Source of the DNA: an uncultured Anaeroplasmataceae bacterium
GTDB lineage: Bacteria > Bacillota_I > Bacilli_A > Acholeplasmatales > Anaeroplasmataceae
DNA length: 64,000 bases
Direction: 5' to 3'
NCBI GenBank assembly: GCA_947589245.1
Contig: CANQBD010000003.1
Coordinates: 1 to 64,000, forward strand
The translations under genes and the position numbers were made by a program. The first letter of the stretch is position 1, and each line of letters begins with the position of its first letter. A model generated the notes under the pieces. That model was not told the origin of the DNA. It saw nothing but the letters and a program-made list of their open reading frames with translations, and made no database searches. This document shows positions 8,409 to 39,924 of the stretch, piece by piece.

Positions 8409-9003
8409 GACCTAAGCTCCTTTCCCTTAATGAATATCGGCACCCACAATAATCTTGACGATACAAATTATAATCTTTAGCTAATTTAACTGAATTTTTA
8501 TATCCTTCTTCTTTTTTGAAATCAGAATATAAAAAATTAATATTAAATTTATTTTCTAATTCTCTACCAATTGCATTTATCCATTCACTATTCTTATGAG
8601 GTGAAATTGATAAGGTTGTTGTAAAATAATCAAAGCCTAATTCCTTAGCTTTTTTTACAGTTTTTTCAAGCCGAAATTTATAACATTCATAACATCTTAA
8701 GCTCTTCTCACCTAAGGTTTCATAACCTTTGATTGCGGCAAGATAATCTTCTTCATTATATTCCGTAAATAAAACATTTATGGCTTGGCCTTGACAAAAC
8801 TTAATTTCTTCATTAAGCCGTTTGACAAATTCTTCCTTTGGGTAAATATTATCATTTGAATAAAAAACTGTAATATCGAAATACTTTTTTAAAAGCATGA
8901 TTACGTGTGTTGAACAAGGCGCACAACAGCTATGTAATAAAAGCTTAGGACGCTCAGTTAAAGACTTTAAAAAAACTTTTAGTTCTTTATATGAATTAAC
9001 CAT
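8380..9003 (-). CDS. queH: Epoxyqueuosine reductase QueH
   Basis: A 207-residue QueH (former DUF208) protein, the non-cobalamin enzyme that reduces epoxyqueuosine to queuosine in tRNA. The N-terminal LLLHSCCAPCS and the C-terminal CYECYKFRLEKT and YCGCRYSL cysteines are the iron-sulfur and metal ligands of the family. Three GTG codons lie upstream in frame; the ATG at 9003 is chosen because AGGTGGTG fits it. It is the first gene of an operon with the metallophosphoesterase and RluA-type genes, and a good promoter lies just upstream. Confidence 0.93.
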   Translation of the reverse strand: MVNSYKELKVFLKSLTERPKLLLHSCCAPCSTHVIMLLKKYFDITVFYSNDNIYPKEEFVKRLNEEIKFCQGQAINVLFTEYNEEDYLAAIKGYETLGEKSLRCYECYKFRLEKTVKKAKELGFDYFTTTLSISPHKNSEWINAIGRELENKFNINFLYSDFKKEEGYKNSVKLAKDYNLYRQDYCGCRYSLRERSLGHGKTEKDNS

Positions 9004-9036
9004 ATTCACCACCACCTAACCTCGAAATACTTTATT

Positions 9037-9065
9037 ATTATATAATAAAAGACACACTATAACAA
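9037..9065 (-). promoter_or_regulatory. Promoter of the queH operon
   Basis: On the minus strand TTGTTA and TATAAT are separated by exactly 17 bases, about 30 bases upstream of queH. It is a sigma-A type match. Confidence 0.65.
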
Positions 9066-9121
9066 TGTTTAAACCTAAAAAAAGACAATTAATACAATAA
9101 TTTATAAAATAATAACTTGAT

Positions 9122-9150
9122 AAAAAGGCCTGAACAAAAATGTTCAAGCC
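9122..9150 (-). terminator. Rho-independent terminator after the GH4 gene
   Basis: GGCTTGAAC and GTTCAGGCC form a stem followed by TTTTTA on the minus strand, about 120 bases beyond the GH4 stop. The rest of the 9066-9271 gap is AT-rich sequence in which I see no gene. Confidence 0.75.
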
Positions 9151-9271
9151 CTCTATTTTTTAAAAAATTGATTTTATTTTATTTTTTTACTTTTTCAAAA
9201 AATTTACTCTCTTCTAAAGCTTTGAAATTATTGACCAAATAATAAAAATATACTACTAATTTAAAAATATT

Positions 9272-16271: not shown

Positions 16272-16292
16272 TTTTAATTAAAAAAGTAAATA

Positions 16293-16399
16293 ACTTCTCT
16301 CATCCAGACTTTACTGTCGGTGTAGGAATTGCACCTACTCATGCAAAAATGCTCGCGGACTATTACCGCCGGTATGGAATTACACCAAACCCCGAAGTA
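16293..16399 (-). ncRNA. FMN riboswitch (RFN element)
   Basis: The minus strand reads CTTCGGGG, then GGTGTAATTCCATACCGGCGGTA, GTCCGCGAGC, GGTGCAATTCCTACACCGAC, AGTAAAGTCTGGATGAGAGAAG, split here only by description. These are the conserved blocks of the RFN aptamer in order. It lies 12 bases after the gpmI stop and controls ribU. Confidence 0.97.
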
Positions 16400-16410
16400 T
16401 TTAAAATTTA

Positions 16411-22410: not shown

Positions 22411-24399
22411 TTAAGATGTATAAACTGACAATATATGATTCAAACTTTCATTTAACCACTCTAATAAGTAATCAACCTGTCCTTCCCATGTAGTAATTGC
22501 TACCATTTCATCTGTGTTTGGCCAATTTGGTTTTCCTAAAATATCCCATCTTAAAAAATTTCTTTCAAAAGAAGCTTTGTAATCAATTAAAGTATCTTTT
22601 ACATTATCAAAATAATTTCTAATTTCATCTTGGTAAGAAGCTAATCTTTCTCCAACCATAGCTTTAATTTCTGGACAATTTAATAACCCATTGTACCAAG
22701 GATTACATGTTGCCATTATTATATTAGGATTAGAAGTCCAATTATAATTGCAGTTTCCACCACTTATATCAAAATCCCATATTGGACCACTATGAAGTTT
22801 GCCTTGGGCATCTTTATACATAAAAAAACTTGAAAAACCAACATCACAATTATTAAATAATTCATGTATTATATAAGAATCAATAAATGTATCTATATCA
22901 ATATATTGTTGAATTTGACTAATTTCTTTAGATTCTAAAGCATTCATAGCATCTATAAGAAATTGCTTAATATAAGTAAGATATGGGGTAAAATCATCAA
23001 GATTGTCAAGATCTTCATAATCTGGACTTTTTATCGCATAATTAACATCATTAACCACCACATAATCTTTATTCTCTATACCTTCCTCAGGAGCACGTCC
23101 GTCTAGTTCAATTAAATATCCCATATCAGCTGGATTTGGTGCTTGTTCAAAATCATCTTCTATGTCAACACGTGTTGATCCTGTTTCGTTTTGCTCACAA
23201 ATCAAATAAACACCAATATATTCACCATTTAAATAAACATCTACGAATTGAGTTTTAGTAGTTGTTTGATTAATATAGTCAAATTTTTCACCTAAAGTAT
23301 ATGCCACATAATTTCTTACCAAGCTAGGATCAGAATAATTAGCAATCAATGTCCAAGTTTTTGCCGAACCATTGCCAAATAAATCTACTTTTTTATCAAA
23401 TTTTAATTTATATGGCTTTTTAGGCAGACCCCAAGTAGAATTACCTCTACCTTTGATTTTGCCAGAAAAATCATCAAAATTATATTCATCTTGGGCATTA
23501 GAAACCGAAATGGAGCAGTTAATATAATCATCCTTAGAAACTATTTCTGCTTGGTCTTGAGTATCAATATAGAAAATTGGTAACTCAAGTGCTTCGACTT
23601 CAAATAATGGTTTAATTGTCTCAAAATCATCTAAAGAAGAAGAAAAAGAAATTGTTTCTCGCAAATCTCCAGTATTCCATCTTAAAAAGGTGTAACCTAA
23701 GGAAGCCTCTGCTTTTAAAACCATATAATCACAATCTTCACAATGTTGTTCTACTATATTTCCAGTATGATGGCCCTTAGAATTATAAATTTCTTCTAAT
23801 ACTTGCCACTCACTCATATTGTGTTCCATATTAACTTTTTCGCCACATAATAAGCAATATTTATAATGCTTATCTTTAGCTGTTACAAAATCAGAAAATT
23901 TATGATTCGTAGAAATACTATCCACAATTTCTTTTCTTTGCTGCTGACACTTTTCACAAGTATAAGTTATAATTCCTGGTGTAATACAAGTAGGTTGTAA
24001 GGTAATTACTCCCTCATCCCATTGATGTCCTGCATAAGAAAAATTCTCTTCTACAACTATCGAACTACTATCATCAAAAATTATAGTCATAACTCCACAC
24101 TCGATAGTGACAGAAGAAATAGCTTTACCATCTTGTCCTTTTAAACTTTCTAACCATTCTTCTTCTGTTAATTTTGGATCATCTGTGGTATATTTTTGAT
24201 AAATTTCATAGGCACTTAATCCATCTTCACCATCTTGTCCTTTTAAACTTTCTAACCATTCTTCTTCTGTTAATTTTGGATCATCTGTAGTGGATTCTTT
24301 ATAAATATCGTAGGCACTTAATCCATCTTCACTATTTTGTCCACAACTGATTAAAAACATGCCCATTACCATAAGTGTAACTATTAAAAGTTTCTTCAT
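22411..24399 (-). CDS. CotH-kinase-domain surface lipoprotein
   Basis: A 662-residue lipoprotein with lipobox LISC at cysteine 19. Residues 26-93 are two tandem 34-residue copies of DGLSAYxIYxxxTTDDPKL / TEEEWLESLKGQDG, a spacer seen in Firmicute surface proteins. Then come Cys/His repeats (CEKCQ, CLLCG, CEDCD), and from about residue 275 a CotH kinase domain: IKGRGNSTWGLPKKPYKLKF, VDVYLNGEYIGVYLICEQ and the metal-binding GPIWDFDISGGN. Spore CotH phosphorylates CotB/CotG; here the target is unknown and must be extracytoplasmic. It is the last lipoprotein of the surface locus and has its own leader and terminator. Confidence 0.87.
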   Translation of the reverse strand: MKKLLIVTLMVMGMFLISCGQNSEDGLSAYDIYKESTTDDPKLTEEEWLESLKGQDGEDGLSAYEIYQKYTTDDPKLTEEEWLESLKGQDGKAISSVTIECGVMTIIFDDSSSIVVEENFSYAGHQWDEGVITLQPTCITPGIITYTCEKCQQQRKEIVDSISTNHKFSDFVTAKDKHYKYCLLCGEKVNMEHNMSEWQVLEEIYNSKGHHTGNIVEQHCEDCDYMVLKAEASLGYTFLRWNTGDLRETISFSSSLDDFETIKPLFEVEALELPIFYIDTQDQAEIVSKDDYINCSISVSNAQDEYNFDDFSGKIKGRGNSTWGLPKKPYKLKFDKKVDLFGNGSAKTWTLIANYSDPSLVRNYVAYTLGEKFDYINQTTTKTQFVDVYLNGEYIGVYLICEQNETGSTRVDIEDDFEQAPNPADMGYLIELDGRAPEEGIENKDYVVVNDVNYAIKSPDYEDLDNLDDFTPYLTYIKQFLIDAMNALESKEISQIQQYIDIDTFIDSYIIHELFNNCDVGFSSFFMYKDAQGKLHSGPIWDFDISGGNCNYNWTSNPNIIMATCNPWYNGLLNCPEIKAMVGERLASYQDEIRNYFDNVKDTLIDYKASFERNFLRWDILGKPNWPNTDEMVAITTWEGQVDYLLEWLNESLNHILSVYTS
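24126..24330. repeat. Tandem 102-bp in-frame repeat
   Basis: Two copies of a 34-codon unit, 102 bases apart, near-identical over their first 65 bases, encode the spacer repeats of the CotH-like lipoprotein. Confidence 0.85.
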
Positions 24400-24655: not shown

Positions 24656-27600
24656 TCAAGAATCTTTTCTTTCATCATAATAAAATCTAAAGTTTTCCTT
24701 ACAATACGCAAAGGCATCATCACCAATTAATACTCCATTTGCTGGTAATATTGCATATTCGAGATTTGAACACCCCATAAATGCACATTCCCCTATATAT
24801 TCTACACTGCCTAAATCTACTTTTTCTATACTATGACAAAATGCAAATGCACTGTCACCAATTGTCTTGACACTTGTTGGCAGTATAAGTTCATTTAAAT
24901 TATAACAGGAATTAAATACATTATCCTTGATTTCAACTAAACTGGAAGGAATATGAATTTTAGTTAAGCTGATACAATAATAGAAAGCAAAACTACCAAT
25001 TTCTTCTACACTATCAGGTAAATTTATATTTGTTAATTTTTGACACCAATAAAACGTTTCTTCCCCTATAGATTTTAAATTTCCTAAAATAGTCACTTCC
25101 TCTAAATTAAAACAATTATAAAATGTACGATTTCCAATTGTTTGTATGGCTGAACCTATTGTTACAACTTTCAATTTTTCACAACCAAAAAATGCCTCTT
25201 CTCCTATATTTTCTATACCATTGCCAATAGAAACATTTCTTAAATTTGAACATAAGTTAAACGCTCCTTTTTGAATAGTAAGAACACTATCAGGAATTAA
25301 AATTGAAAATAAATTTATACAATTTGAAAAGGCGTATGCACCTATTTCAGTTAAACCATTATCTATAATAACACTTGCTAAATTTGAACAATAATAAAAT
25401 GCACCATAACCTATTTTTTTAACACTGCTAGGAATATGAATGGATTTCAAATTATTAAAACTAAAAAATTGCCAATCTCCAATATCAGTGACTGTGGATG
25501 GAATCTCTATCTCTTCAATTTCTTGTAAGTTATCAAAATTGTCTTTCATGTAAATATGATCAGCATAATTCATTGGATTTGATGTTGAGTTTTGAGCATC
25601 AAAAGATATATTACACCAATCTTCTATAGTTCCATCATAATATACTATATCTAATGCGCTACATTTATAAAATGCACGATAGCCTATTTTTTTGATTGTA
25701 TTTGGAATCGTTATGCTTCTAAAACTAGAATCTTCAAAAGCATAGGCTCCAATATCATAAACTTTCTCGTTTATATATTTCGGTAATTCTATATCTTTTT
25801 CTTGACCTATATATCCTGTCAAAGTATAATTTTCATCTTTATTAAAAAATACTAACCCATTACTATTAAAGAAACTACTATCAGTTAAAACATCATATAT
25901 AGTTTTGGCATTTAATCCAATAGAGCCATTATCTTCACTACCAATCTGAATATTCAAACTAGAAAAGTTATATATTTCCAATAATTGATAACAATTCATA
26001 AAAGCTCCATAATCTATTTTAGTTATATTGGCAGGTATCTTTATAGATTTCAATTGATCAAATCCATAAAATTGCCAAGTCCCAATCTTATCTATCGTTG
26101 TCGGCAATTCTATATTAGTTACTTCTTCCCACGACCCATTATTATTTTTCATATAACAATGTCGGGCAAAATTCATCGGATTTGAACTTGACCACTGCTC
26201 ATCAAAGACTATATTACACCAAGATTCTATGTTTCCGGCATAATAAACATTTTTAAGATTACTGCAACCTGAAAAACATTTAAGACCTGTTTTCTTTAAA
26301 GATTTAGGCAATAAAATTGTATTTAGTCCACTACAATTAGCAAAAGCATTATCACCAATAATTTCAATACCTTCCCTAATTTCAATCTTTTCCAAATTAA
26401 TAAAATACTCAAAAATATTGCTTGGAATACTATCTCCACCAGATATTATAATCTCGTTGATTGTGAGTGTATCATCTGAATCAGCTTTTTCGTTCGGTAT
26501 TGCAGAAATACCATATACTGGAATTTGAACTTTTCGCAAACCATAACATTCTAAGAAAGCATTTTTTTCAATTTGGGTAACACCTTCTAATATATATAAA
26601 TTTTCTATATTCATACACATTGCAAATGCATCATCTTTGATATAACCACCTCTAATACTTACATCTTTTAATTTTGTAGGAACATAATCACTATTTTTTT
26701 CAAAAGTATCTGCACCAAAAATATATCCAAAATGTGTGTTTTCAGAATTACTTAAACTTTCTCCCGTGAATGGTAAAGAAATACTATGTAAATTAGAACA
26801 GTTAATAAAAGCAGCTTTGCCAATACTTGTTACACTATCAGGAATTACAATGTCTTGTAGACTAGAACAATAACCAAATGCACTTTTTTTAATATTTGTG
26901 ATATTATTGGATAAGTTAATTGATTTCAAATTGTTAAATCCATAAAATTGATATTCCCCTATTTCTGTTATTGTATTAGAAATATTTATATTTAAAACTT
27001 CTTCCCAAATCATATCGGTATTCTCTAAATAAAAATGATTAGAAGTGGTAGAAGAAAAAATATTGCTTTCAAATTTTATATTACACCAATCTTCTATGGT
27101 TCCTTTATAATAAATACTATCTAATTTTTCACAAGATAAAAAGGCTTTAAAATCAATTTTTTTCACAGAAGAAAACATTTTAATACTTGCAAGGTTCAAA
27201 CAATCCTTAAATGAATTTTCACCAATTTCTTCAACATTTTCGGGAATCTCTATATAGCATATGTTTGAACACCCTTCAAATGCTGATGAACCTATTATTT
27301 GTAAAGATGCAGGAAGTACAACATTAATAAGATTGGAACAACCATAAAAAGTTTTAGATTGAATTTCATTTATTTTGCCTAAGATAGTTACATTTTTTAA
27401 ACTTAAACACTCTGATAATGCTGATCTACCTATCGTTTTGATATTTGATTGAATAACAACGCTATTTATATCAGTTTTTTCAAAAGCAAATTCTTTTATT
27501 GCTGTTACAGGTAGATTGTTATAATAGTTTGGTACAATTATATCACTATCTAGAGCAGTTCCTATGCCTTCTACAGAATAACTTTCTCTATCATTATTTA

Positions 27601-27907
27601 GTTCATAGGCTAGTCCTTTTGTATATATTTCATTAGTATATATTTTTTCTTTATCTTTATATCCACAAGTATTACAAGTTCTTTCTCTTTCACCTTCTTC
27701 TGTCGCAGTTTCATTTTTTATCACCACCCAATCACCATAATTATGAGGAGTTTTTTCACTTTTTTCCCCACAAGAGCATTCTTCCCAATGATTTGTTTCA
27801 TCATTGTTGTAAGAAAAAGAATGGGAATGACTATTTCCACAACTAGAACAAATTATCAATAATATTAAGCAAGGTATAGTCGTAATTAAAAAATTAATCC
27901 TTTTCAT
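24656..27907 (-). CDS. Giant BspA-type LRR_5 surface lipoprotein
   Basis: A 1083-residue lipoprotein with lipobox cysteine 23 (ICSSC). Residues 25-95 hold one Cys/His unit (HWEECSCGEKS, CNTCGYKD). From about residue 110 to the end it is built of LRR_5 repeats of the form IG..AF..C..L..I.IP..V. A longer unit of about 90 residues, starting with Y.G.IE.WCNI.F and containing IG.WQF.GF..LKSI, occurs three times (near residues 265, 545 and 755). These repeats are typical of adhesins and ligand-binding surface proteins in gut bacteria. It begins two bases after the upstream lipoprotein's stop with GGTGGAAG, so the two form an operon. The stop is TGA. Confidence 0.88.
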   Translation of the reverse strand: MKRINFLITTIPCLILLIICSSCGNSHSHSFSYNNDETNHWEECSCGEKSEKTPHNYGDWVVIKNETATEEGERERTCNTCGYKDKEKIYTNEIYTKGLAYELNNDRESYSVEGIGTALDSDIIVPNYYNNLPVTAIKEFAFEKTDINSVVIQSNIKTIGRSALSECLSLKNVTILGKINEIQSKTFYGCSNLINVVLPASLQIIGSSAFEGCSNICYIEIPENVEEIGENSFKDCLNLASIKMFSSVKKIDFKAFLSCEKLDSIYYKGTIEDWCNIKFESNIFSSTTSNHFYLENTDMIWEEVLNINISNTITEIGEYQFYGFNNLKSINLSNNITNIKKSAFGYCSSLQDIVIPDSVTSIGKAAFINCSNLHSISLPFTGESLSNSENTHFGYIFGADTFEKNSDYVPTKLKDVSIRGGYIKDDAFAMCMNIENLYILEGVTQIEKNAFLECYGLRKVQIPVYGISAIPNEKADSDDTLTINEIIISGGDSIPSNIFEYFINLEKIEIREGIEIIGDNAFANCSGLNTILLPKSLKKTGLKCFSGCSNLKNVYYAGNIESWCNIVFDEQWSSSNPMNFARHCYMKNNNGSWEEVTNIELPTTIDKIGTWQFYGFDQLKSIKIPANITKIDYGAFMNCYQLLEIYNFSSLNIQIGSEDNGSIGLNAKTIYDVLTDSSFFNSNGLVFFNKDENYTLTGYIGQEKDIELPKYINEKVYDIGAYAFEDSSFRSITIPNTIKKIGYRAFYKCSALDIVYYDGTIEDWCNISFDAQNSTSNPMNYADHIYMKDNFDNLQEIEEIEIPSTVTDIGDWQFFSFNNLKSIHIPSSVKKIGYGAFYYCSNLASVIIDNGLTEIGAYAFSNCINLFSILIPDSVLTIQKGAFNLCSNLRNVSIGNGIENIGEEAFFGCEKLKVVTIGSAIQTIGNRTFYNCFNLEEVTILGNLKSIGEETFYWCQKLTNINLPDSVEEIGSFAFYYCISLTKIHIPSSLVEIKDNVFNSCYNLNELILPTSVKTIGDSAFAFCHSIEKVDLGSVEYIGECAFMGCSNLEYAILPANGVLIGDDAFAYCKENFRFYYDERKDS

Positions 27908-27909
27908 AT

Positions 27910-30900
27910 TTATTCTTCCACCTTATTCATTGTTTTACCATCTATACCATTTTTACCATTTGTGCCAAACCAAGGACCATTGTTATATAACCAACAACTT
28001 TTATTAGGGTTACCTTTTTTTCCGCCAGCTCCAGCAGAACCACCTGTCAATTTAACTTGGTACTGACTTGTAACATAGTTACTATATCTGATTGCATCGC
28101 CACCATTACCGCCAGCTCCACCATCACCGCCGGAAAATAAAGCCATATGATTGTGAGATGGATACAACTCAAATTTACCAGTTGCTTCGCCACCTTTTCC
28201 ACCATTTCCACCATTACCACCTGTAACACTAATAATAAAAGCATTAGCTCCAAAGTAGATATTGTGACCTACTATAGCGATTCCACCAGCTCCACCATCT
28301 TTACCTTTTCTTTGCCAGCACTCAGTATTCTTGTTCATTTCAGAAGTTACACCATTGGCACCATTAACTCCATTACCACCGATTATAGAAAAAATATCTT
28401 CAGTGTAATTATTTATCTCTAAATCATAAGCTTCTATAGCATTCTGGCCAGATTCACCTGAACTAGAGCCGTTTGCACCTTTTATAATTACTTTTTCACC
28501 ATAAGCATTAATTGTTAGCAGACATTCACTATTTGTTTTAATTGTTGTAGTTTTTGCCATACCATTTGTTACAAAAGTGTGTAAATTTAGTACAAAAAGT
28601 TTATCTTTTCTATCTTCTAATTCAATAGCTATATTATATTCTCTTGATATTCTTCCATAAATTGTCAATGATTGGTATCCATTAGGAATAATTAACTTAT
28701 AAGTTTGCTTAGATTGAGCCTCAGAGTCATTTAAAAAAGAAATAACTAAATCATATAATTTTGAATTATCTTGATATATAATTTTAACATCTTGAGCAGT
28801 TATAGTCGAATTTTCACTTTGTTTCAATTCTTCTATCCCAAATATAATTTTTTTTCTATAGTTTAAAATTGTATCAAATGAGATAGGATTCTCTTCAGCA
28901 AATAATTGTAAATGTAAATCGTTAGGATTTAATGTCTCCACATTTTTAGGATCACTTTGAACTATTTTCATTAAATGGTCATAAAGTGTTCTATCTATCC
29001 ACTCTAATGCATTAATAATGGATAATGATTTAAGCTTGGTAAAATTATCAAAAATTTTAGATGGATCATTTAATGAATCAGAAGAGCTAGAACTATATAC
29101 AATATTTCTACAGTCATTAAAAGATAATTCCTCTAAATTACTTAATGGGGATGTCTGTAAATTTGATATATCAGCCAAAGACTTTAATTTATTAAAAGTT
29201 AATTTTTTCAAATTACTCATATTTACAAACTCAGGTAAAATAACAATATTATCAAGGTTAGACATATTTAAAATCTCTAGATTGTTTTCAGCACCTAATT
29301 TGATAAAATAATTTGATAATCCAGCTTGAGTTATCTTTTTATTGCTTGAAATATCTAAATCTTTTAAGTTGATGAATTTAGTTAAATCCAATAAGTCATT
29401 ATCAGTTAAATTACAATTTTCTAGAATTAATTTTTTTAATGTGGTTGAAGTAGGAAATTTATTAATTTTTCCTATTGTTTCTTCCTGCTTAAATTGTCCA
29501 TTCAAAGATATTCCTGATAAATTGACAGTCTCTAAATCTGTAATATATTTTAAAGAATAAAAAGATGACATATCAGATAAATTTGCATTGTTGCTCAAAT
29601 CAATATTCTTTAAATTCCAAAGACTTATCAAACTATCAATTGTTTTTGCATTTATTTTATTAGATCCAATATTTAACTCTTTAAGTGAGGTCAAATTAGC
29701 AATTGGACTCAAATCTGCAATACTATTATTATTCAAGTTTAGATATTCTAATTTTCTTAATCTTCTTAAAGATTCAACTGAATTTGAATCCGTTACAGTA
29801 TTAATTGAATTTGATGAAGCATCCAAATATACTAAATTTTTGTTTTCATTTAAGACATCTAAATTATGAATATTATTGTTAGATATATCTAAATAAACTA
29901 GTTGTTTTAAAGTTGGTAAAATATTTCTAATATATTCTTCATCTAATCCATTATTACTTATGTCTAATTTTTTCAAACCTATCAAATACTTAATTCCCAA
30001 AACATAGTTCATTTCATTGTTATTTTTGAAATGTTCACTTAAATATAATTCTTCAACCAATGATAGTTCATATTCTGTTATTACATCAACTTGCACACCC
30101 TTATCTATTAAAATCTTTCTGATTTGCGCTCCTAATTGACCAGCATTGATGTCAAATTCAATATTTTCAGATAATAATTTTTCATTTTTATAAAAAAGAT
30201 TAAATTCACCAGAACTTATTAAGCCTACAACATCCAAGGACATATCATCATTTAATATAATAATGTTACTTAATTCTTCACCATCTAAAGAATATATTTT
30301 CATTGTGATATCTTCATCTGGATTAAGTTCTAATTGATAGTGGGCACCAAAATTCATAGGCAACACATTCATAGGATTAAAGTTGGCCTTAATGGAACCA
30401 AATACCAAACTAGGATTACTAATAGAAATTTTATAATTAGGTCTAACATCTAGATTTGATTTGACATTTTGATAATCCGTATCCCAATCAACAAAAGTAT
30501 AAGAAATATTATTGACTATCTTTGAAGGATATTCCTGATCAAAAGTAGCAGTTTCTCCATAGCCTACAATTTGTGTCAAAATGATATTGCCATCGAAATC
30601 ATAAAATGAAACAGTAAAAGTTTGTTTTTCATATTTTCCATAAAAATATATATCATTTTGGTCTAAATTATATTCACAAGTAGCATTAAGTATAGAATAG
30701 TTATCATAATATTTTCCATTTTTATCAGCATATTGAACTTTACCATCCTCATCAAACCATCCCATAAAATCAAAGCCCTCTTTTGGATTAATTATTGGAA
30801 AAGCAGGAAGTTCGTTTTCAAATTCAATGCTCTGCATTAATATTTCTTTTTCATCTATAATATAATGAAGATTATATTTATTTTTCTTCCAACGCAATTC

Positions 30901-31545
30901 TAAATACTGACCAGCATTTATAGAAATGGCTGAAAGTCTTTTACCAGCACCATCAAAATACTCGCTATCATTTTCCACATCAAATACACCTAAACAAGTA
31001 TATCCTTTCCGAGTAGTTAGTTCTATAGGCAAAGCCATAGTATTTATATCAAAATATAGATTTTCTAAAAAGAATACTTTCATTTTACATTTTACACATA
31101 TACCATTAGAAAAAGTATGCTCCTCAAAGCCACTTTTTTCGGTTATGTGATCACAAATAGCTGGATGCCAATGTCCCGTATTATCATATACAAAATCTTC
31201 TGAAAAAACATGTTTGTGTTCTAATTTATCAATACTACTGCTTTCTTCATATCCACAAACAGAACATACGCGTTTTTTTAAACCGGAAGCTTCTTCAGTA
31301 GGTTCTTTTGTTGTTATCCAACTTCCGAAAATATGATTTTCTTCATTACTTTTTGCTCCACACGAACACTCATTCCAATGTTTTGTCTCATTATACTTTG
31401 TTATAGTATAGAAATGGGTATTATGAACCGGTGGCATATCATCATATTCGTATGATGCAGTATCTTCATATCCACATGAGCCCAAAATTATTGTAAACAC
31501 AAATAAAGAAGCAATACTAAATATCTTTATCATTCTTTTGAACAT
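27910..31545 (-). CDS. Modular lipoprotein: Cys/His, InlB-type, internalin LRR and glycine-rich domains
   Basis: A 1211-residue lipoprotein (lipobox GSC, cysteine 24). The order is: Cys/His units (residues 45-155; HWNECSCGAKS, CSVCGYEE, CVKCK), InlB_B/Listeria-Bacteroides-type repeats (about 165-380; GFDMGWFDEDGK-like blocks), internalin-style LRRs (about 490-830; LKKLDISNNGL, LVYLDISNNNI, LEYLNLNNNSI), a linker, then a glycine-rich C-terminus (about 1010-1211; GGNGGNGGKGG, GGDGGAGGNGGDA). It has no LPXTG, so anchoring is by lipid only. It is probably a host- or polymer-binding surface protein. A GAGGAG site precedes the ATG, and it heads an operon with the LRR_5 lipoprotein. Confidence 0.88.
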   Translation of the reverse strand: MFKRMIKIFSIASLFVFTIILGSCGYEDTASYEYDDMPPVHNTHFYTITKYNETKHWNECSCGAKSNEENHIFGSWITTKEPTEEASGLKKRVCSVCGYEESSSIDKLEHKHVFSEDFVYDNTGHWHPAICDHITEKSGFEEHTFSNGICVKCKMKVFFLENLYFDINTMALPIELTTRKGYTCLGVFDVENDSEYFDGAGKRLSAISINAGQYLELRWKKNKYNLHYIIDEKEILMQSIEFENELPAFPIINPKEGFDFMGWFDEDGKVQYADKNGKYYDNYSILNATCEYNLDQNDIYFYGKYEKQTFTVSFYDFDGNIILTQIVGYGETATFDQEYPSKIVNNISYTFVDWDTDYQNVKSNLDVRPNYKISISNPSLVFGSIKANFNPMNVLPMNFGAHYQLELNPDEDITMKIYSLDGEELSNIIILNDDMSLDVVGLISSGEFNLFYKNEKLLSENIEFDINAGQLGAQIRKILIDKGVQVDVITEYELSLVEELYLSEHFKNNNEMNYVLGIKYLIGLKKLDISNNGLDEEYIRNILPTLKQLVYLDISNNNIHNLDVLNENKNLVYLDASSNSINTVTDSNSVESLRRLRKLEYLNLNNNSIADLSPIANLTSLKELNIGSNKINAKTIDSLISLWNLKNIDLSNNANLSDMSSFYSLKYITDLETVNLSGISLNGQFKQEETIGKINKFPTSTTLKKLILENCNLTDNDLLDLTKFINLKDLDISSNKKITQAGLSNYFIKLGAENNLEILNMSNLDNIVILPEFVNMSNLKKLTFNKLKSLADISNLQTSPLSNLEELSFNDCRNIVYSSSSSDSLNDPSKIFDNFTKLKSLSIINALEWIDRTLYDHLMKIVQSDPKNVETLNPNDLHLQLFAEENPISFDTILNYRKKIIFGIEELKQSENSTITAQDVKIIYQDNSKLYDLVISFLNDSEAQSKQTYKLIIPNGYQSLTIYGRISREYNIAIELEDRKDKLFVLNLHTFVTNGMAKTTTIKTNSECLLTINAYGEKVIIKGANGSSSGESGQNAIEAYDLEINNYTEDIFSIIGGNGVNGANGVTSEMNKNTECWQRKGKDGGAGGIAIVGHNIYFGANAFIISVTGGNGGNGGKGGEATGKFELYPSHNHMALFSGGDGGAGGNGGDAIRYSNYVTSQYQVKLTGGSAGAGGKKGNPNKSCWLYNNGPWFGTNGKNGIDGKTMNKVEE

Positions 31546-31790: not shown

Positions 31791-31819
31791 AATATATTAG
31801 AATAATCTGAAAACTACAA
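31791..31819 (-). promoter_or_regulatory. Predicted promoter of the 31545 lipoprotein operon
   Basis: TTGTAG, 17 bases, TATATT on the minus strand. The -35 box starts 6 bases after the TGTAAA direct repeat, as expected for activation by a bound regulator. Confidence 0.5.
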
Positions 31820-31825
31820 TAAAAG

Positions 31826-31852
31826 TGTAAAAAATGACATTATATATGTAAA
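31826..31852. promoter_or_regulatory. Putative LytTR operator, distal copy
   Basis: TGTAAA at 31826 and 31847, a 21-bp period, with near-identical sequence between the half-sites to the copy at 37887. The spacing equals two helical turns, typical of LytTR dimer sites. Confidence 0.5.
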
Positions 31853-31864
31853 AATTATCATAAT

Positions 31865-31918
31865 AAAAAGGCTATGGAATCTAGATTTCAAAATTCTAGA
31901 ATACCATAACCTTTTTTA
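31865..31918 (-). terminator. Terminator of the Cys/His repeat lipoprotein operon
   Basis: GGTTATGG/CCATAGCC with an inner TCTAGA/TCTAGA stem, followed by TTTTT on the minus strand and T6 on the plus strand. It is bidirectional in form. Confidence 0.88.
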
Positions 31919-31935
31919 AAAAGTTTATTACTATA

Positions 31936-33321
31936 TCATAATGGAATAGCTGATAATAAATCAATAATTATGTATTCATCATAAATATTTGATGTGGCAG
32001 TTGAAAATAAGACACCGCCACTTTCTTTGGTATCTTTTGTAAAAATAAATTTAAAAGAATCACCTTTCTCAAATGATTCAGTAAATAACATATGAGTCAC
32101 ATCTAATTCAAGAATGTATGAAGCCTTACAAGTAAATTCATGCTTTTCATTTTTTACTACCTCAATATAGTCATCACACTTAACATTTTGTAAATCATAA
32201 TTTCCTCTAAAACCAAAAGATATCGAAATATTAGCTTTTGCTATAAAAATCAGCGCTGATGAAGAGCCAGAAGCTGTATTTGTGGACTGAAAACTATTAT
32301 TATTCATAATAAATGGATATGTTTCATCATTATATATTTGATATAGAGGATTATCAACCAATAATTTAACACCACTATTTTCACTTACAATTCCACATCT
32401 TGTACAAATTCCTTCTCTAAATAAATGACCTAATTTTGTATTTCTCGTTTCTTCATAATCACAATTAGTACAATGACGCCATTCACTCCCACCTTCACAA
32501 GATGACTTTTCAACTTCAATCCAATTAGTTAAATTGTGCCCCGTTTTTTCTATTATTTCAATATAAGTATGTGAATTATCATTAGCACAAGTATATTTTA
32601 GATAACCATTCGTTGTACATGTTGCAGCCTTTTGCTCTGATAATACATAATCATGAGAAAGCTTTGCTAATTCTTCAATATAGGAATGATTATGGTCATA
32701 TTCACAAACATATTCTACTATCCCACTTTCACTACAGGTAGGTAATTTAATAATATTCGCTACATATTTGTGACCATGACAATCTAAAGGACGTTCTTCA
32801 TAATAGCTACAATTAGCACAGAACCTAATACTTTTGCCAGCTTCCTCACAACTAGCTTCTATAGCTGTGTACCACTCCTGCATCACATGTCCTTTGGGAG
32901 CTATTTCGCTTGTATAAAAATGATCTGGATTGTTGCTGCAAATATATTTAATGAGACCAGGCTCCTCACACGTAGCTTCTTTAATAATTTGTTGTTGATA
33001 ATTATGACCAATAGAATTAATGGGCTCTGTTTCTTTAAAATCGCACATCAGACAAGTTCTTTCTCGCAAGCCTTCACTTTCACATCCAGGACTTACAATT
33101 TCACGCCAAATCGAAAAATGGTGACCTAAAGCTGCCACGTAATTGTCATTATATTGATAATCACAGCTAACGCATTGATAGTTTGTATAGCCATCTTTGA
33201 CACATGTAGGCAAGTAAATTGTTGACTTAAATTCATGTTCATGCGGACTTATAGCAGTATTACAACTTACCATTATGCAAATTATAAACCAGAATAATAA
33301 TATCATTAATATTTTTTTCAT
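31936..33321 (-). CDS. Lipoprotein with eight Cys/His repeats
   Basis: A 461-residue lipoprotein (lipobox cysteine 20). Residues 27-310 are seven full and one partial unit of about 38 residues, each starting GH or SH, then a TC/GC, then a third cysteine followed either by xxC (CLMC, CANC, CTNC) or by five residues and a histidine (CSNNPDH, CEYDHNH, CANDNSH). The two kinds are interspersed. This looks like repeated metal-binding knuckles on an extracellular protein. The last 130 residues form an unrecognised beta-rich domain. It is the last gene of the 37782 operon, ten bases after its neighbour, with AGGAGTTT before the ATG. Confidence 0.82.
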   Translation of the reverse strand: MKKILMILLFWFIICIMVSCNTAISPHEHEFKSTIYLPTCVKDGYTNYQCVSCDYQYNDNYVAALGHHFSIWREIVSPGCESEGLRERTCLMCDFKETEPINSIGHNYQQQIIKEATCEEPGLIKYICSNNPDHFYTSEIAPKGHVMQEWYTAIEASCEEAGKSIRFCANCSYYEERPLDCHGHKYVANIIKLPTCSESGIVEYVCEYDHNHSYIEELAKLSHDYVLSEQKAATCTTNGYLKYTCANDNSHTYIEIIEKTGHNLTNWIEVEKSSCEGGSEWRHCTNCDYEETRNTKLGHLFREGICTRCGIVSENSGVKLLVDNPLYQIYNDETYPFIMNNNSFQSTNTASGSSSALIFIAKANISISFGFRGNYDLQNVKCDDYIEVVKNEKHEFTCKASYILELDVTHMLFTESFEKGDSFKFIFTKDTKESGGVLFSTATSNIYDEYIIIDLLSAIPL

Positions 33322-33331
33322 AGCTAAACTC

Positions 33332-36004
33332 CTAGATATAAATTATTCTTCCTATAAAAGATAAATTTTCAAAAATTGAAGCTATCTCTTTCATTTCTTT
33401 AGGAATATATAAAAAATCAATATATTGCTGAATATTAATTCTATCAAAGACTCGTTTAATTTCGCTATTTAATGTATATTCACCTTTAATATTAAGCCCT
33501 ATCAGCATTGAACCAATCATAATTTCAGTTCCTTTTTGGTTTTTGTACCACTTAGAATCAGTTATTCCATGTAGCACATCCATATCTATATCATCTGGTA
33601 CGCTAATATTAGCCATGTCCATCATCCAATAATTTGTGTATTCCTTGGTGATAGAATTATAACCATTGTATGAGACAGTACCCTTAATGGTTGAAGGTAA
33701 AACCAATGTTTGACATTTAACTTCCCTAAAACAATTTAGAAATAAATATTTGATACTATTAGGTACAATAATATCATTATTTTCAGCTGGATTTAATGCC
33801 AAAATAAGCGTATCTTTAGTCTTATTTAAAATATAATCCTCCGTTTTAACAAAATAAGGATGATCCTCAGGAATCTGGAATTTAAGTGATGATTTTTTAT
33901 TCAAATACCAAATGTTATCAATAAATTTAACACTAGCAGGTAAAATTAAATTCTTAATATTCGAAAAATATATACACTCAAAATTGATATATTCTAAAGA
34001 ACCCTGCTCATTAAAATTAATAACTTCCAATTCTTGAGAAATAATTTTTAATCTTATTTCTCTAATAGTGCTAGACAAGTTTAAATGTCTAATAGTTGCA
34101 AAAGTAAAATTAATTTTATCTAGTACTTCCATTCCTTCGGGAATAATCAAAGTATCAATATTAGCAAAATCAAATGAGTTTTCATTTAAAGCATAATCCA
34201 AGGTTAGCTGAAAGCTACTCTTAGGTTCAATAAACATTATTAATTCATCTTTCATAAAAGAATTTTTAAATAAAATACCATCCTTAATATAAAGATAATG
34301 ATTGTTTTCAGAAATTATCAAAGATTTTATCTTTTTCAAGCGTTCATTTTCATATTTAAAATGCCGAACTTCAGCACTTAAAAAACAATATTCCAAATTA
34401 CTTATAATTGAACTTGTCACTTCTAAAACTGGTAAATCATTAAAAGTATTGGGAATAAAACCAATTAAATGATCTGAACTATTTAAGCTATAACTATATC
34501 CTAAAACACCATCAATTTCCACCAAAGTTTTATCAAAGAAAGCATCAGAATAATATGAAGGTGTTGAGACACTCCTACCATAGATAACATCACCAGAGTT
34601 GATAAGCGAAAAATCATCTATTTTATTAGTATAATTATAATCTAAATACCAATCATAAAATTCAAAGCTATTTTTTGTGATACCTAAATAAAAGCTTGGA
34701 CCTAATTTTATAAATTCATTATATCCTACTTCCAGCATTCCATACTTTTGTGTTTCAATAAAGAAAGTAAAATCATAGTAAGAATAATATATTAAATCAT
34801 AAACATATTCACTATTTTCACGTTTCTCCCATTTACCTATCGCATTGTCTTTTTTAGGAATAGCCGGTGGTGAGGAATTAAATGGTAATTTTGTTATCAA
34901 TTCTCCCTGATAATAATATTCATATTCAATTGGTCTGAAATTGACAATTACATCGGTATCAGAAGTTATTTCCGTCAAATCACAACTAAAATCTTGAACA
35001 ACATAATTAGGCATCTGATAATTAAATTCAATTGAATCTCCAGCCATTATTTGCGTTTCATATAAAAAATTATCTAAAGTCCAGGCAAAAAAACGTACTG
35101 TAATAGTTTCCAAAATAGATGCATAAATTGGATAAATAGCCATTGATTTTAAAACATTTGTACCATCATTACTCCAACCAATAAACAGCTTCCCTAATTC
35201 TTCCTTAGGGATAGGTGGTATTGTAGATTCCCCAATTTTGACAACTTGTCGCGATAAGACATCACCATTAAGATCATAATATATAACCTCACATGACCCA
35301 GATTGATAAATTGAATAAACATCCAAATTACTCTGAATATTAGAAAAATCCTTATCCCAGCCATAAAAAATATAATCATCATAGGATTCCATAACCGGTG
35401 GTGTTGCAGAGCTTCCTAAATTGACATATTCTTCTTTAATTAAAATACTCTCATGATAAAATCTAACTCTAAAAGTCGGCAATGTCGAATAACGAGGATA
35501 TAAACTAATTACCTCACTATTTACTTCATTAGAATATGGTTTTTGGAAAGTTTCATCTAAATACCAATTATAAAAATAAAGATTATCTTTAGTTGGTTTT
35601 TCAATATCATAGGCACTCTGTTTCAAATAATAATCCTTAGCTAAATCCTTATGAACCACAAATAAATGACTATTTGAAAGGAGATTAGAATCATACAAAT
35701 AAAGTTCAACTTCTAAGCTTTTATTATTGTAATTTATATTAATAATATGCCTACCAGGTTCACTAAGCTTAGCCAAATCTTCTTTTGAAAGCATATCTTC
35801 TGTCACTATTTTTTGTTCGATAAAATTATCAGAATATGTAACATCAAACCAAAGATTATCCAATTGGAAATTTTCTATTCGACAAGCAAGGTGAGTATCT
35901 GGAGAAGTGATTTTCATATCAATTACTTCTCTTTCAACACCCTTAGAACAACTAAATAAGAGAAATGGTACCAAAATGAATAATATAATCATTGTTTTTT
36001 TCAT
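33332..36004 (-). CDS. InlB-type/LRR surface lipoprotein, long paralogue
   Basis: An 890-residue lipoprotein (lipobox FSC, cysteine 19). An N-terminal bacterial Ig-like segment (IDMKITSPDTH... to about residue 105) is followed by repeated InlB_B-like units (TFRVRFYHES, YDDYIFYGWDKDF, SCEVIYYDLNGDVL), each of about 70 residues with a conserved W/GW core, then an irregular LRR_5 region from about residue 535. It starts inside the end of the upstream paralogue (ATGA overlap), with AGGGGGAA as the ribosome site. The two share architecture and arose by tandem duplication. It is probably a surface adhesin; no ligand is evident. Confidence 0.84.
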   Translation of the reverse strand: MKKTMIILFILVPFLLFSCSKGVEREVIDMKITSPDTHLACRIENFQLDNLWFDVTYSDNFIEQKIVTEDMLSKEDLAKLSEPGRHIININYNNKSLEVELYLYDSNLLSNSHLFVVHKDLAKDYYLKQSAYDIEKPTKDNLYFYNWYLDETFQKPYSNEVNSEVISLYPRYSTLPTFRVRFYHESILIKEEYVNLGSSATPPVMESYDDYIFYGWDKDFSNIQSNLDVYSIYQSGSCEVIYYDLNGDVLSRQVVKIGESTIPPIPKEELGKLFIGWSNDGTNVLKSMAIYPIYASILETITVRFFAWTLDNFLYETQIMAGDSIEFNYQMPNYVVQDFSCDLTEITSDTDVIVNFRPIEYEYYYQGELITKLPFNSSPPAIPKKDNAIGKWEKRENSEYVYDLIYYSYYDFTFFIETQKYGMLEVGYNEFIKLGPSFYLGITKNSFEFYDWYLDYNYTNKIDDFSLINSGDVIYGRSVSTPSYYSDAFFDKTLVEIDGVLGYSYSLNSSDHLIGFIPNTFNDLPVLEVTSSIISNLEYCFLSAEVRHFKYENERLKKIKSLIISENNHYLYIKDGILFKNSFMKDELIMFIEPKSSFQLTLDYALNENSFDFANIDTLIIPEGMEVLDKINFTFATIRHLNLSSTIREIRLKIISQELEVINFNEQGSLEYINFECIYFSNIKNLILPASVKFIDNIWYLNKKSSLKFQIPEDHPYFVKTEDYILNKTKDTLILALNPAENNDIIVPNSIKYLFLNCFREVKCQTLVLPSTIKGTVSYNGYNSITKEYTNYWMMDMANISVPDDIDMDVLHGITDSKWYKNQKGTEIMIGSMLIGLNIKGEYTLNSEIKRVFDRINIQQYIDFLYIPKEMKEIASIFENLSFIGRIIYI

Positions 36005-37782
36005 TCATTTATTCCCCCTACTTCTATTAATAATTCATCAGTTTTTTTTGAATATAAATTACCATTCAAACTGTAATAATACTCATTGTCTTCATCAACA
36101 ACAAAAGCGCCAATAGTTTGACCTAAAGCTTTTTCCAAGTCATAAATATAGTCAATTCCTTCATCAATAACGATAATCTGACAATTATTAAAAGCTTCGG
36201 CACTAACTCCTAAAACAGTCATTTCCTTTGCAGCCACATTTAGAATTTTTTTGGTTAACCAAATATTTTGATAATTAATAAAGCCTTCAATATAAACACC
36301 ATTTTTTTCAATATTATAATCCAATTTAACTCTTGTAATATCTATAAAAGAATAATCATCTTCAATTGCCAAACCATAGACATCGACAATATTACTATTA
36401 AAACTTTGGCCTAATTCTTTGGTATAATTTTCATCTAAATACCATTTATAATAGACATTTTTATTGAGAATCATCGCCACATAAAAACTCAAGTTATTAG
36501 TTACATTATCACTATTTTTCACCATAAATGTTTCAGTACTATTTGGTAAATGAACATTAAAATATTCACCTTTTTTTTCATAGACAAGGTCAAATCTTGT
36601 CCAATTATTTTCAGCTCTTTGCCAAACGGCTAAATATTCATTAGTATCAGGATATTTAGGTGGATTTTCAATTGATAAACCTGAATAATATAAAATATTA
36701 TCGATGTAATAATAGTAAACATAGGGTGTCAAATAAACAATAATCTGAAGGTCACTATAAATGTTGTCAAGTGGTGAACTATATCCAACTACTTTATATC
36801 GGTCATCATTGTTAACAAATGACGCTGTTCCACCTGCTTCTACTTCACAAGAGGATAAAAGATTGCCGGTCGTATCTAAAAACTCCACATTATAAGTGGT
36901 TCCATTTAAGGCATAAATTGGAAAAATATCAAGATGATTATCAATATTAGTTAATGAATCAGTCCAACCTAAAAAAATATAACCCTCTATGTGAGGTGCT
37001 TCTGGGGGATTTAAACTACCTCCCTTTGTAACTACTTTATACGCAAGCAATTCATTATTTTTAGTAAAAAAACGAACAACGGCTTGGCCAGATTTATATA
37101 ATATAGCTCGAATATCTAAATCATGATCAGTACTTAATAAATAAGTATCCCAATCATAAAATAAATATGAATCTGGAATATCCGGAGTAAAATATTCAAT
37201 CATTTCACCTGTGATGACATATTTTCTTTTAACTAGCCTTTCTAAAACATAATAATCAATCTTGTAAGTTTTTGTTTCAGACCACATCGGATAAAGCTGG
37301 ACAATTTTCTTTTGACCATCAACATAATCAATAGTTTTGGCCTCATCGGCAAACCAGCCATAAAAATAATAATTATTTTTAATTGGTGGCAAGGAATTTA
37401 AGATTGATGTTGCCGTAAAGATATTAAGCTTTTTATCATCGTAATAATAATAGATGTAATTGTCTCTAATAATTTCTTCATTATAAATAAAAATATCAAA
37501 TTCGTACTGATAGTTTTCAATTAATAATTTTAAGTGCTGTAATCCTATCTCTTTAGTGAATGTTTCACTTAGATCTTCTTCATTAACCACTATATGACGA
37601 CTTTTGTTTTTAGAATATTCTAATCTTAAAACAATTCTATCTAGTCTAAAATCATTTATATTTTGAATGATAGAATTCTCATCACTAGCTATTTTTATAT
37701 TGGTAATTTCATTGGCATTATTACTACATGAAATTAAAAAAATTAATATTAATGAACATAATGCTAAGATAACTCTTTTCAT
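36001..37782 (-). CDS. InlB-type surface lipoprotein, short paralogue
   Basis: A 593-residue lipoprotein (lipobox ISC, cysteine 19) and tandem paralogue of the next gene: the same N-terminal Ig-like segment, then InlB_B-like repeats (TYKIDYYVLERL, SYLFYDWDTYL, QAVVRFFTKNNEL). It stops after only about 80 residues of the LRR-like region, so it looks like a version truncated relative to its 890-residue neighbour. It is the first gene of the three-gene operon, directly facing the LytTR regulator across a 197-base divergent promoter region. GGAGTAAATT precedes the ATG, and the stop is TGA. Confidence 0.84.
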   Translation of the reverse strand: MKRVILALCSLILIFLISCSNNANEITNIKIASDENSIIQNINDFRLDRIVLRLEYSKNKSRHIVVNEEDLSETFTKEIGLQHLKLLIENYQYEFDIFIYNEEIIRDNYIYYYYDDKKLNIFTATSILNSLPPIKNNYYFYGWFADEAKTIDYVDGQKKIVQLYPMWSETKTYKIDYYVLERLVKRKYVITGEMIEYFTPDIPDSYLFYDWDTYLLSTDHDLDIRAILYKSGQAVVRFFTKNNELLAYKVVTKGGSLNPPEAPHIEGYIFLGWTDSLTNIDNHLDIFPIYALNGTTYNVEFLDTTGNLLSSCEVEAGGTASFVNNDDRYKVVGYSSPLDNIYSDLQIIVYLTPYVYYYYIDNILYYSGLSIENPPKYPDTNEYLAVWQRAENNWTRFDLVYEKKGEYFNVHLPNSTETFMVKNSDNVTNNLSFYVAMILNKNVYYKWYLDENYTKELGQSFNSNIVDVYGLAIEDDYSFIDITRVKLDYNIEKNGVYIEGFINYQNIWLTKKILNVAAKEMTVLGVSAEAFNNCQIIVIDEGIDYIYDLEKALGQTIGAFVVDEDNEYYYSLNGNLYSKKTDELLIEVGGINE

Positions 37783-37823
37783 AATTTACTCCATAATACA
37801 TTGATTTATATTGATAAATTTAT

Positions 37824-37852
37824 ATAATATATATTATAATATAAAATGTCAA
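37824..37852 (-). promoter_or_regulatory. Promoter of the 37782 lipoprotein operon
   Basis: TTGACA, 17 bases, TATTAT on the minus strand, about 40 bases before the gene. The TGTAAA repeats lie 34 bases upstream of the -35 box. Confidence 0.7.
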
Positions 37853-37886
37853 TTAATACATAAAAAAATATTTTTTTAGCACCAAA

Positions 37887-37913
37887 TGTAAAAAAAAACA
37901 TTATAATTGTAAA
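37887..37913. promoter_or_regulatory. Putative LytTR operator, divergent-region copy
   Basis: TGTAAA at 37887 and 37908, period 21. It ends 8 bases before the -35 position of the regulator's own promoter (TATAAT at 37945-37950, extended as TTTGTATAAT, with no consensus -35), a classical class-II activator position. Confidence 0.55.
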
Positions 37914-37944
37914 TTATAACTATGCCGAAAAATGAAATATTTTG

Positions 37945-37950
37945 TATAAT
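37945..37950 (+). promoter_or_regulatory. -10 box of the LytTR regulator promoter
   Basis: TATAAT 30 bases before the regulator gene. The -35 slot reads ATGCCG, so the promoter probably needs an activator. Confidence 0.55.
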
Positions 37951-37979
37951 ATATACATATGTATTAGGAGATAAATAAT

Positions 37980-38687
37980 ATGGATGTTATTATATTAGAT
38001 GATGAAAAAGAAACTATAAGTAATTTAGTTGAAATAATTAAAAAATTTGATTCTTCCTGCCAAATTGATATTTTCAATAATTCAAATTCTTTATTTTTAG
38101 CTTTAGAAAAATCAAAGCAGGCTATCGTGTTTTTAGATATCTTTATCCCTTATGAATCAGGAATAGAATTATCTAAAAAAATCAATGAAATGTATTCCCA
38201 TGTTCCAATCATTTTCATAAGTGGCAAGCCTAAAGAAACTTTCGATGTTTACGATGGTAAACACATCTATTTTTTAGAAAAGCCATTTGAAGAACAAAAA
38301 GTTTTTAAAGCCTTAAATTTAGCTCTGGAATATCAATCTAAAGCATTCTTTACTTATAGTAGATTTAAAAGACTCTTTATGATTCCTATAAATGATATAG
38401 TCTATTTTGAATCAAATGGTAGAATCATTCAAATATTTACGACAAATAATAAAGAAATGGATTCTTTCTTTTCGACCCTAGATGATGTTCAAAAAGATTT
38501 AGGATTTCCATTTTTAAGAGCTAATAAATCTTTCTTAATTAATCCATACTATATCGCAGCCATTGGTGGTAATAAGATATTCATCAAAAATATTTCTAAA
38601 AATTCAAGCATTGCTAAAGAAATAAATATTACCAGAAATTATAAAAAGGAAGTTATGGATTATGTACTATCTCATAAACACAATTAA
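37980..38687 (+). CDS. LytTR-family response regulator
   Basis: A 235-residue response regulator. The receiver domain (residues 1-115) has the acidic pair DD at 7-8, the phosphoacceptor aspartate 53 in VFLDIFIP, and lysine in EKPF near residue 102. Residues about 130-230 are a LytTR DNA-binding domain (IPINDIVYFESNGRIIQIF, FLRANKSFLINPYYI). LytTR regulators bind direct repeats spaced about two turns apart and usually activate surface, virulence or peptide genes. It is the first gene on the plus strand in this region, divergent from the lipoprotein operon, with AGGAGATAAATA before the ATG. Its kinase partner overlaps it by 26 bases. Confidence 0.93.
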   Translation: MDVIILDDEKETISNLVEIIKKFDSSCQIDIFNNSNSLFLALEKSKQAIVFLDIFIPYESGIELSKKINEMYSHVPIIFISGKPKETFDVYDGKHIYFLEKPFEEQKVFKALNLALEYQSKAFFTYSRFKRLFMIPINDIVYFESNGRIIQIFTTNNKEMDSFFSTLDDVQKDLGFPFLRANKSFLINPYYIAAIGGNKIFIKNISKNSSIAKEINITRNYKKEVMDYVLSHKHN

Positions 38688-39924
38688 TTATATAATTATG
38701 TTATTATTATTTATCTTCATATTTAAAATTAAAAAACAGAACATTTATAAGCTTATGGCTATAAGTGTTTTTTTTATTGGTCTTATACTCTACTTGACAT
38801 TAGGAAATTTAGAATTGACTATTCAAATCAATAATTATAAATATAATCTTCTTCTTTCCCTAATCTTATCTTTGACCTTATTTAGCATAAGCCTTTGTTT
38901 AGATGATTGGCGGTCATTTTTATTTTGTCTTCTACCATTTTTTACTGATTTAGCAGCTAAGTGTCTATTAAGTAATGCCTTAGGAATTTTATTTAATGAA
39001 GTAAATAAAGCTCAGTACTACTATTGGTCGCCATATCTCTTAATATCAAATAATTTCTTTTATGCCTTCATTTTACTTCTATATTATTTTACAAAACGAA
39101 TAAATAAAGCGGAAGATAATAAGGCCATTTCAATTTTATACATAGTCATTCTAACTATCGAATTAATAAGCTTCTTAATCATCAATTTAAACCTCTTAAA
39201 AACGATATTTTTTGTTCCAGCAGATTATCCAAAAGTTATATTATTAAATGTATTATTTATCATTCTATTCATTACTACTTTATTTGCTATATATTTTATT
39301 CAAAATCTTATTATCAAGAAAAACAATATGATTAATAAATATAATAATGAATTGCTTTTAAATGACTTTAAAAAAATATACATTTCTAAGCAAGAAGAGT
39401 TATTCAAAATGCGGCATGACATTGCTAATATTGTTGAGACTTTAAAAACCTTAGAATCCTTACAAGCTATGGATATTGCTTCTACTCTTTCTAACCAAAT
39501 AAAAGAAATCAAAGATATTTATTTTACTGAAAATGAATTAGTAAATGCCATTTTAGTTCATAAAATTAATTGTGCTAAAGAATTAGGAATTGAAGTAACC
39601 ACCGAAATCAAACTCCAAAAAGACATAAAAATGGCTAATGCTGATCTGATATCATTAATAACAAATTTGTTTGACAATGCGATTGAGGCAGCTAGTAAAA
39701 CTTTGAAAAAAGAAATATATCTTACAATAAATCAAACTGATTCTGCTTTAGAAATTTCTTTCCTAAATACTTATGATAAGGATATAATCATAACAAAAGA
39801 AAATCCTCAGTATCACCAATATGGTCAAAAAATCATCTCTAATATTGTTAAAAAATATAAAGGGCAATTAATTGTTCAACCAAATGATATTGAATATAAA
39901 GTATTTATTATATTAAAACTATAA
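38662..39924 (+). CDS. AgrC-like GHKL sensor histidine kinase
   Basis: A 420-residue membrane kinase: six hydrophobic segments over residues 1-215, a coiled segment, then the phosphoacceptor block FKMRHDIANIVETL (histidine 252) and a GHKL ATPase with N-box NLFDNAIEAA. It matches the HPK10 class (AgrC, ComD), which commonly sense peptides. No AgrB- or AgrD-like gene or precursor peptide is visible nearby, so the signal is unknown. It overlaps the regulator gene; AAGGAAG inside that gene serves as ribosome site. A terminator follows. Confidence 0.9.
   Translation: MYYLINTINYIIMLLLFIFIFKIKKQNIYKLMAISVFFIGLILYLTLGNLELTIQINNYKYNLLLSLILSLTLFSISLCLDDWRSFLFCLLPFFTDLAAKCLLSNALGILFNEVNKAQYYYWSPYLLISNNFFYAFILLLYYFTKRINKAEDNKAISILYIVILTIELISFLIINLNLLKTIFFVPADYPKVILLNVLFIILFITTLFAIYFIQNLIIKKNNMINKYNNELLLNDFKKIYISKQEELFKMRHDIANIVETLKTLESLQAMDIASTLSNQIKEIKDIYFTENELVNAILVHKINCAKELGIEVTTEIKLQKDIKMANADLISLITNLFDNAIEAASKTLKKEIYLTINQTDSALEISFLNTYDKDIIITKENPQYHQYGQKIISNIVKKYKGQLIVQPNDIEYKVFIILKL

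Follow-up and report, generated by a model that had tools for sequence, protein, structure and literature searches.

A pair of TGTAAA boxes in the divergent promoter region between a response regulator gene and a lipoprotein operon is, on the evidence of sequence comparison, very probably where the adjoining LytTR regulator docks on the DNA. We consider it likely that this direct repeat (operator 1) is bound by the regulator, which would thereby activate its own promoter lacking a -35 element, and that inverted copies of the operator would activate the promoters of surface lipoprotein genes. The repeat was identified in a window of 64,000 nucleotides from an uncultured Anaeroplasmataceae bacterium (contig CANQBD010000003.1), and the features discussed below are collected in Table 1.

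Table 1. Positions, in window coordinates, of the operators, promoter elements, and genes considered in this study.
Feature	Position	Strand	Evidence
Operator 1, TGTAAA-N15-TGTAAA direct repeat	37887..37913	+	Sequence, genome scan, orthologue promoters, shuffles
Regulator promoter -10 box TATAAT, no -35 at 37922-37927	37945..37950	+	Sequence; same distance in orthologues
Response regulator, receiver (PF00072) and LytTR (PF04397)	37980..38687	+	Pfam domains
GHKL-type sensor kinase (PF14501), N-terminal membrane segments, overlaps regulator gene	38662..39924	+	
Candidate -10 of facing operon, weak (TGT-ATTAAT), 29 bp from operator 1, a spacing shared with other targets	37852..37857	-	Inferred
Near-consensus promoter TTGACA-N17-TATTAT of facing operon	37824..37852	-	Sequence
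Facing operon, three lipoproteins (593, 890, and 461 aa; two with Listeria-Bacteroides repeats)	31936..37782	-	
Operator 2, TGTAAA-N15-TGTAAA, inverted relative to 31545 operon	31826..31852	+	Window and genome scans
Promoter TTGTAG-N17-TATATT, 6 bp from operator 2	31791..31819	-	
1211-aa LRR lipoprotein, first gene after operator 2	27910..31545	-	
1083-aa BspA-type LRR lipoprotein (LRR_5), second gene of operator 2 operon	24656..27907	-	

Inspection of the sequence located the two boxes at 37887-37892 and 37908-37913, giving the 21-bp period of the original prediction. The predicted distances were also correct, as operator 1 ends at 37913, 8 bp before the -35 slot of the regulator promoter (37922-37927), and 34 bp separate it from the near-consensus promoter of the facing operon. 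The slot was placed by a 17-bp spacer before the TATAAT box and reads ATGCCG, in agreement with the claim that this promoter is -35-less; 37 bp separate the start of the second repeat from that of the box. The number of loose TGTAAA pairs (gap 10-20) in the window is not remarkable, with two found compared to 0.71 expected and 16% of shuffles reaching two. Both of these pairs have the exact 21-bp period and a common middle, ACATTATA. We hold with high confidence that operator 1 is real and that its layout is ordinary for a LytTR operator.

Orthologues of the regulator (37-41% protein identity) were identified in only three of the 54 other genomes of the family (G007, G021, and G004), and distant LytTR proteins are present elsewhere in the order. 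G021 holds two orthologues (G021a and G021b), and the conservation set consisted of five regulator promoters (the window's own and those of the four orthologues) from four genomes and two genera. Conservation of the repeat in orthologous promoters, which the original prediction entailed, was found throughout: all five contain a TGTAA pair of 21-bp period, and its distance to the -10 is kept. The repeats read TGTAAA/CGTAAA in G007, TGTAAA/TGTAAT in G021a, TGTAAA/TGTAAA in G021b, and TGTAAC/TGTCAT in G004. Mismatches to TGTAA-Nx-TGTAA summed over the five promoters amounted to 2 at period 21, compared to 9-14 at 15 other periods (13-28). The TATAAT-like box lies 37 bp from the start of the second repeat in the regulator promoters (38 bp in G021b), and the orthologous promoters, like the window's own, have no evident -35. 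Taken singly, three promoters are strong: 4 of 2000 dinucleotide shuffles of the 150 bp upstream of the window's regulator match as well as the real sequence, as do 2 and 0 of 2000 shuffles for G021a and G021b, respectively. The promoters of G007 (92/2000) and G004 (161/2000) are weak on their own. Autoregulation by the LytTR regulator is a strongly supported prediction, and we infer that this would be autoactivation, as opposed to autorepression.

In the regulator, the receiver domain precedes the LytTR domain, with both Pfam matches above the cut-off (3.5e-14 and 5.9e-13, respectively), and the protein weakly matches the AgrA structure 4xqj. Its LytTR domain is the only one detected in the window's own genome (1.28 Mb, 92.6% complete). 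Agr-type peptide (pheromone) quorum sensing was considered and is unsupported, as AgrB (PF04647) is absent from all four regulator-carrying genomes at the stated completeness of the own genome. In the G004 orthologue (L062, G004:C4, ~8504-9199), the phospho-acceptor Asp of the receiver is replaced by N and the conserved Lys by S, and a partner kinase was not detected in the G004 genome. Since G004 keeps a target operator although its regulator is an orphan without a phospho-acceptor, phosphorylation of the regulator may be dispensable there.

Searching the own genome for exact TGTAAA-N15-TGTAAA sites resulted in four matches. Three of these differ from TGTAAAAAANNNCATNATNNATGTAAA at no more than one position, and no further site appears when up to three mismatches are tolerated. 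All three precede lipoprotein genes, namely those at 37782 and 31545 in the window and, ~70 bp downstream of the third copy, a BspA-type LRR lipoprotein gene on contig C6; lipoproteins were assigned from an N-terminal signal and cysteine in the translations. The fourth match (C20:14497) was rejected as chance, being without the shared middle and located at a gene junction within coding sequence. A terminator-like hairpin recognized by eye (31868-31917) ends the facing operon ~15 bp from operator 2, placing this operator and its promoter directly behind the hairpin. The - strand of the window also encodes a CotH-kinase-domain lipoprotein (22411-24399) with a duplicated N-terminal ...YKESTTDDPKLTEEEWLESLKGQDG segment and carries an FMN riboswitch (16288-16403, 105.8 bits).

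When read in the direction of the gene, every lipoprotein site is TTTACA (or TTGACA)-N15-TTTACA, opposite to the orientation in the regulator promoters. Most of these operators are followed by a TTGNAN -35 after 6 bp and a -10-like box after 28-29 bp. The -10-like boxes are TATAAT at the own C6 site, TATATT at the own 31826 site, TATAGT or TAAAAT in G021, and TAAAAT in G004 (at 28 bp) and G007 (at 29 bp). Exceptions to TTGNAN are TTTTTT in G007, GACATT at the facing gene of G021, and GCTAAA at the facing gene of the window. In either orientation, the operator is located just upstream of the promoter: the gap is 8 bp to the -35 slot of the regulator's own promoter and 6 bp to a -35-like element at the majority of targets. 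The centre of the pair is at about -57 from the inferred start in the forward orientation (own promoter) and about -55 in the inverted orientation (targets). Because these centres are nearly equal and close to the position of the promoter-proximal repeats of AgrA (about -60; PMC4227749), a model with activation from both operator orientations is favoured.

The facing operon departs from this spacing. On the - strand, its strongest promoter consists of TTGACA at 37852-37847 and TATTAT at 37829-37824, separated by 17 bp, and lies ~28 bp beyond the distance predicted by the 28-29 bp rule of the other targets. The claim that the regulator controls the adjacent surface operon was therefore only partly supported: two further operators in the own genome and many in the sister genus speak for control of surface genes, but the best promoter of the facing operon itself is displaced. 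At the G021 counterpart of the facing lipoprotein, the same operator lies 28 bp from a TATAAT on the lipoprotein side and 37 bp from a TATAAT on the regulator side, so that one operator fits both rules. It is here that the proposed sharing of an operator by two promoters is clearest. Control of the facing operon in the window (37782) is plausible.

In G021, which belongs to the sister genus, ~9 near-identical operator sites were identified. Eight of these, on C1 and C14, precede lipoprotein genes, mostly BspA-type LRR, at least five of which carry LRR_5; the remaining site (C22) precedes the gene for a 377-aa protein without a Pfam match. One site was found before a BspA-type LRR lipoprotein gene in G004 and one before a gene for a lipoprotein without a Pfam match in G007. 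The pattern TGTAAAAA-N13-TGTAAA (<=1 mismatch) gave 25 matches in G021 compared to 5 for a backwards control. Since counts above the control were also obtained for G001, G005, and G006 (20/9, 19/15, and 20/8, respectively), none of which has a close orthologue, such numbers alone are only suggestive of a regulon; what distinguishes G021 is the recurrence of near-identical sites. Its target promoters are for the most part paralogues, hence non-independent, and several other matches (dnaA region, C4, C9, and C12) look like background. An identical 181-bp operator-bearing block is present at two contig ends in G021 (L064:77-257 on C2 and L121:6181-6361 on C49), bounded by inverted CCCGTTTTCGACA-like ends; it is probably a mobile-element insertion or a strain mixture at an intergenic region.

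A search of 55 genomes with the target pattern TTTACA-N15-TTTACA-N6-TTGNAA (<=1 mismatch) resulted in 12 matches in G000, G004, and G021, two unrelated matches in G007, and eight in the other 51 genomes, compared to 12 over all 55 for the backwards control. The match at G007:C24 and the eight other family matches were treated as background. The Poisson probability of the 12 matches, calculated with approximate genome sizes, is ~3e-11, or 1e-3 after collapsing paralogous promoters to five; as the pattern was built from already known sites, these values show specificity for carrier genomes and no independent discovery. A forward pattern with a -10 box at one mismatch proved too permissive, with a match rate near one per genome. 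When the own genome was left out of the training set, the resulting matrix ranked both window operators at the top (21.8 and 21.4; next 10.4) and scored the C6 site at 24.3; the peak score of shuffled windows averaged 13.2 and reached at most 23.5 among 100. No operator-like site was found around the other BspA-type genes at own C22, C9, C5, and the start of C6 or at G021 C16, C13, C21, and C35, where the best score was 5.4 compared to >=17.6 for the training sites. Most BspA-type genes examined in these two genomes are thus without an operator, which suggests that the regulon covers a subset. Genus-mates (G007:C11, G003:C3, G005:C8, G006:C4, and G009:C32) contain single open frames that encode BspA-type LRR_5 repeats and, at 10,680-16,498 codons, rank with the longest reading frames of bacteria.

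Over 18 sites, the consensus is TGTAAAAAA-N12-TGTAAAAAA with a period of 21, consistent with two ~9-bp direct repeats 10-13 bp apart. The published LytTR half-site consensus is [TA][AC][CA]GTTN[AG][TG], with which TGTAAAAAA agrees by eye at about five of eight informative positions; we count this partial fit against our explanation. Published LytTR operators consist of 9-10 bp repeats with 11-12 bp between them, their exact spacing is essential, in most cases they activate from a position upstream of the -35, and positive autoregulation is common (PMC6193735, PMC2766830, PMC11347149). The repeats of published autoregulatory systems diverge from the consensus too (PMC6193735). Among these, HdrRM and BrsRM of Streptococcus mutans are positively autoregulated, and their 9-bp repeats, separated by 12 bp, lie 4-11 bp ahead of the -35 (PMC6193735), a comparable arrangement in which a membrane inhibitor takes the place of the receiver domain and kinase found here. 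AgrA P2/P3 and SilA DR1/DR2 share with operator 1 a direct-repeat pair of 21-bp period upstream of promoters and a regulator paired with a membrane kinase. The present system differs from them in its half-site, the absence of AgrB from the genome, its BspA-type lipoprotein targets, and the inversion of the target operators relative to the regulator's own promoter. CoxC and RcoM likewise recognize direct repeats two helical turns apart, but these are three in number and of another sequence, and CoxC is a repressor whose operator, unlike those described here, overlaps the -35 (PMC11347149). In our literature search, the one paper that mentions both BspA and LytTR does not link them.

Three other explanations were weighed. 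A chance repeat in an A+T-rich intergenic region might be suspected, given that the loose TGTAAA pair is non-significant in the window alone and that A-tract repeats are common at 30% G+C. We find this scarcely credible, as exact spacing and position are conserved between regulators just ~40% identical and the repeat recurs at specific target promoters; the TGTAAAAAANNNCATNATNNATGTAAA-type genome sites, the family-wide target pattern, and the five-promoter spacing test contradict it. It is also quite improbable that the repeat serves the regulator's own promoter alone, with the lipoprotein copies belonging to another protein or being left over from promoter duplication. The non-matching distance of the facing near-consensus promoter would agree with this, as would the lack of an operator at most of the examined BspA-type genes of the own genome and G021. 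However, regulator and lipoprotein promoters share both motif and period in the regulator-carrying genomes, and the target pattern is at background across the 51 other genomes of the family.

The regulator might instead act with opposite signs, activating its own -35-less promoter and repressing lipoprotein promoters that combine an inverted operator with a usable -35 (TTGNAN). Activators are expected to keep a fixed distance to the -10, and the 28-29 bp kept across genera, which repression would not need, were therefore counted for activation. The inverted operators also end 6 bp upstream of the -35, without overlap. Lipoprotein sites are nevertheless always inverted and mostly beside a fair -35, and LytTR repression has precedents in CoxC (PMC11347149) and in AgrA, which represses bsaA and whose site there lies immediately downstream of the promoter (PMC4227749). 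On balance, we regard opposite signs as unlikely.

Under the preferred explanation, in which both promoter types are activated, a signal would reach the GHKL kinase and the regulator would be phosphorylated at D53. It would then bind operator 1 as a head-to-tail tandem pair, one LytTR domain per repeat and two helical turns apart, and activate its own -35-less promoter in a positive feedback. From the inverted copies, at nearly the same centre-to-start distance, it would activate surface lipoproteins, mostly BspA-type LRR. A point against this is that RNA polymerase would meet another face of the protein at the inverted target operators. We advance only tentatively the more specific proposal that one asymmetric operator supports activation in either orientation by a head-to-tail LytTR dimer, at a nearly equal distance to RNA polymerase, forward at the regulator's own promoter and inverted across the lipoprotein regulon, with one operator serving two divergent promoters. 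A literature search found no study addressing whether LytTR activation depends on operator orientation, and this locus is a natural test of whether it depends on orientation or on distance alone.

Switches of this type are known; the apparent novelties are the variant half-site, a regulon of BspA-type lipoproteins, and target operators in flipped orientation. Both the regulator's own gene and part of the cell surface are probably under its control, which would provide a regulator and a testable operator code for part of the BspA-type LRR surface lipoproteins that are abundant in this lineage.
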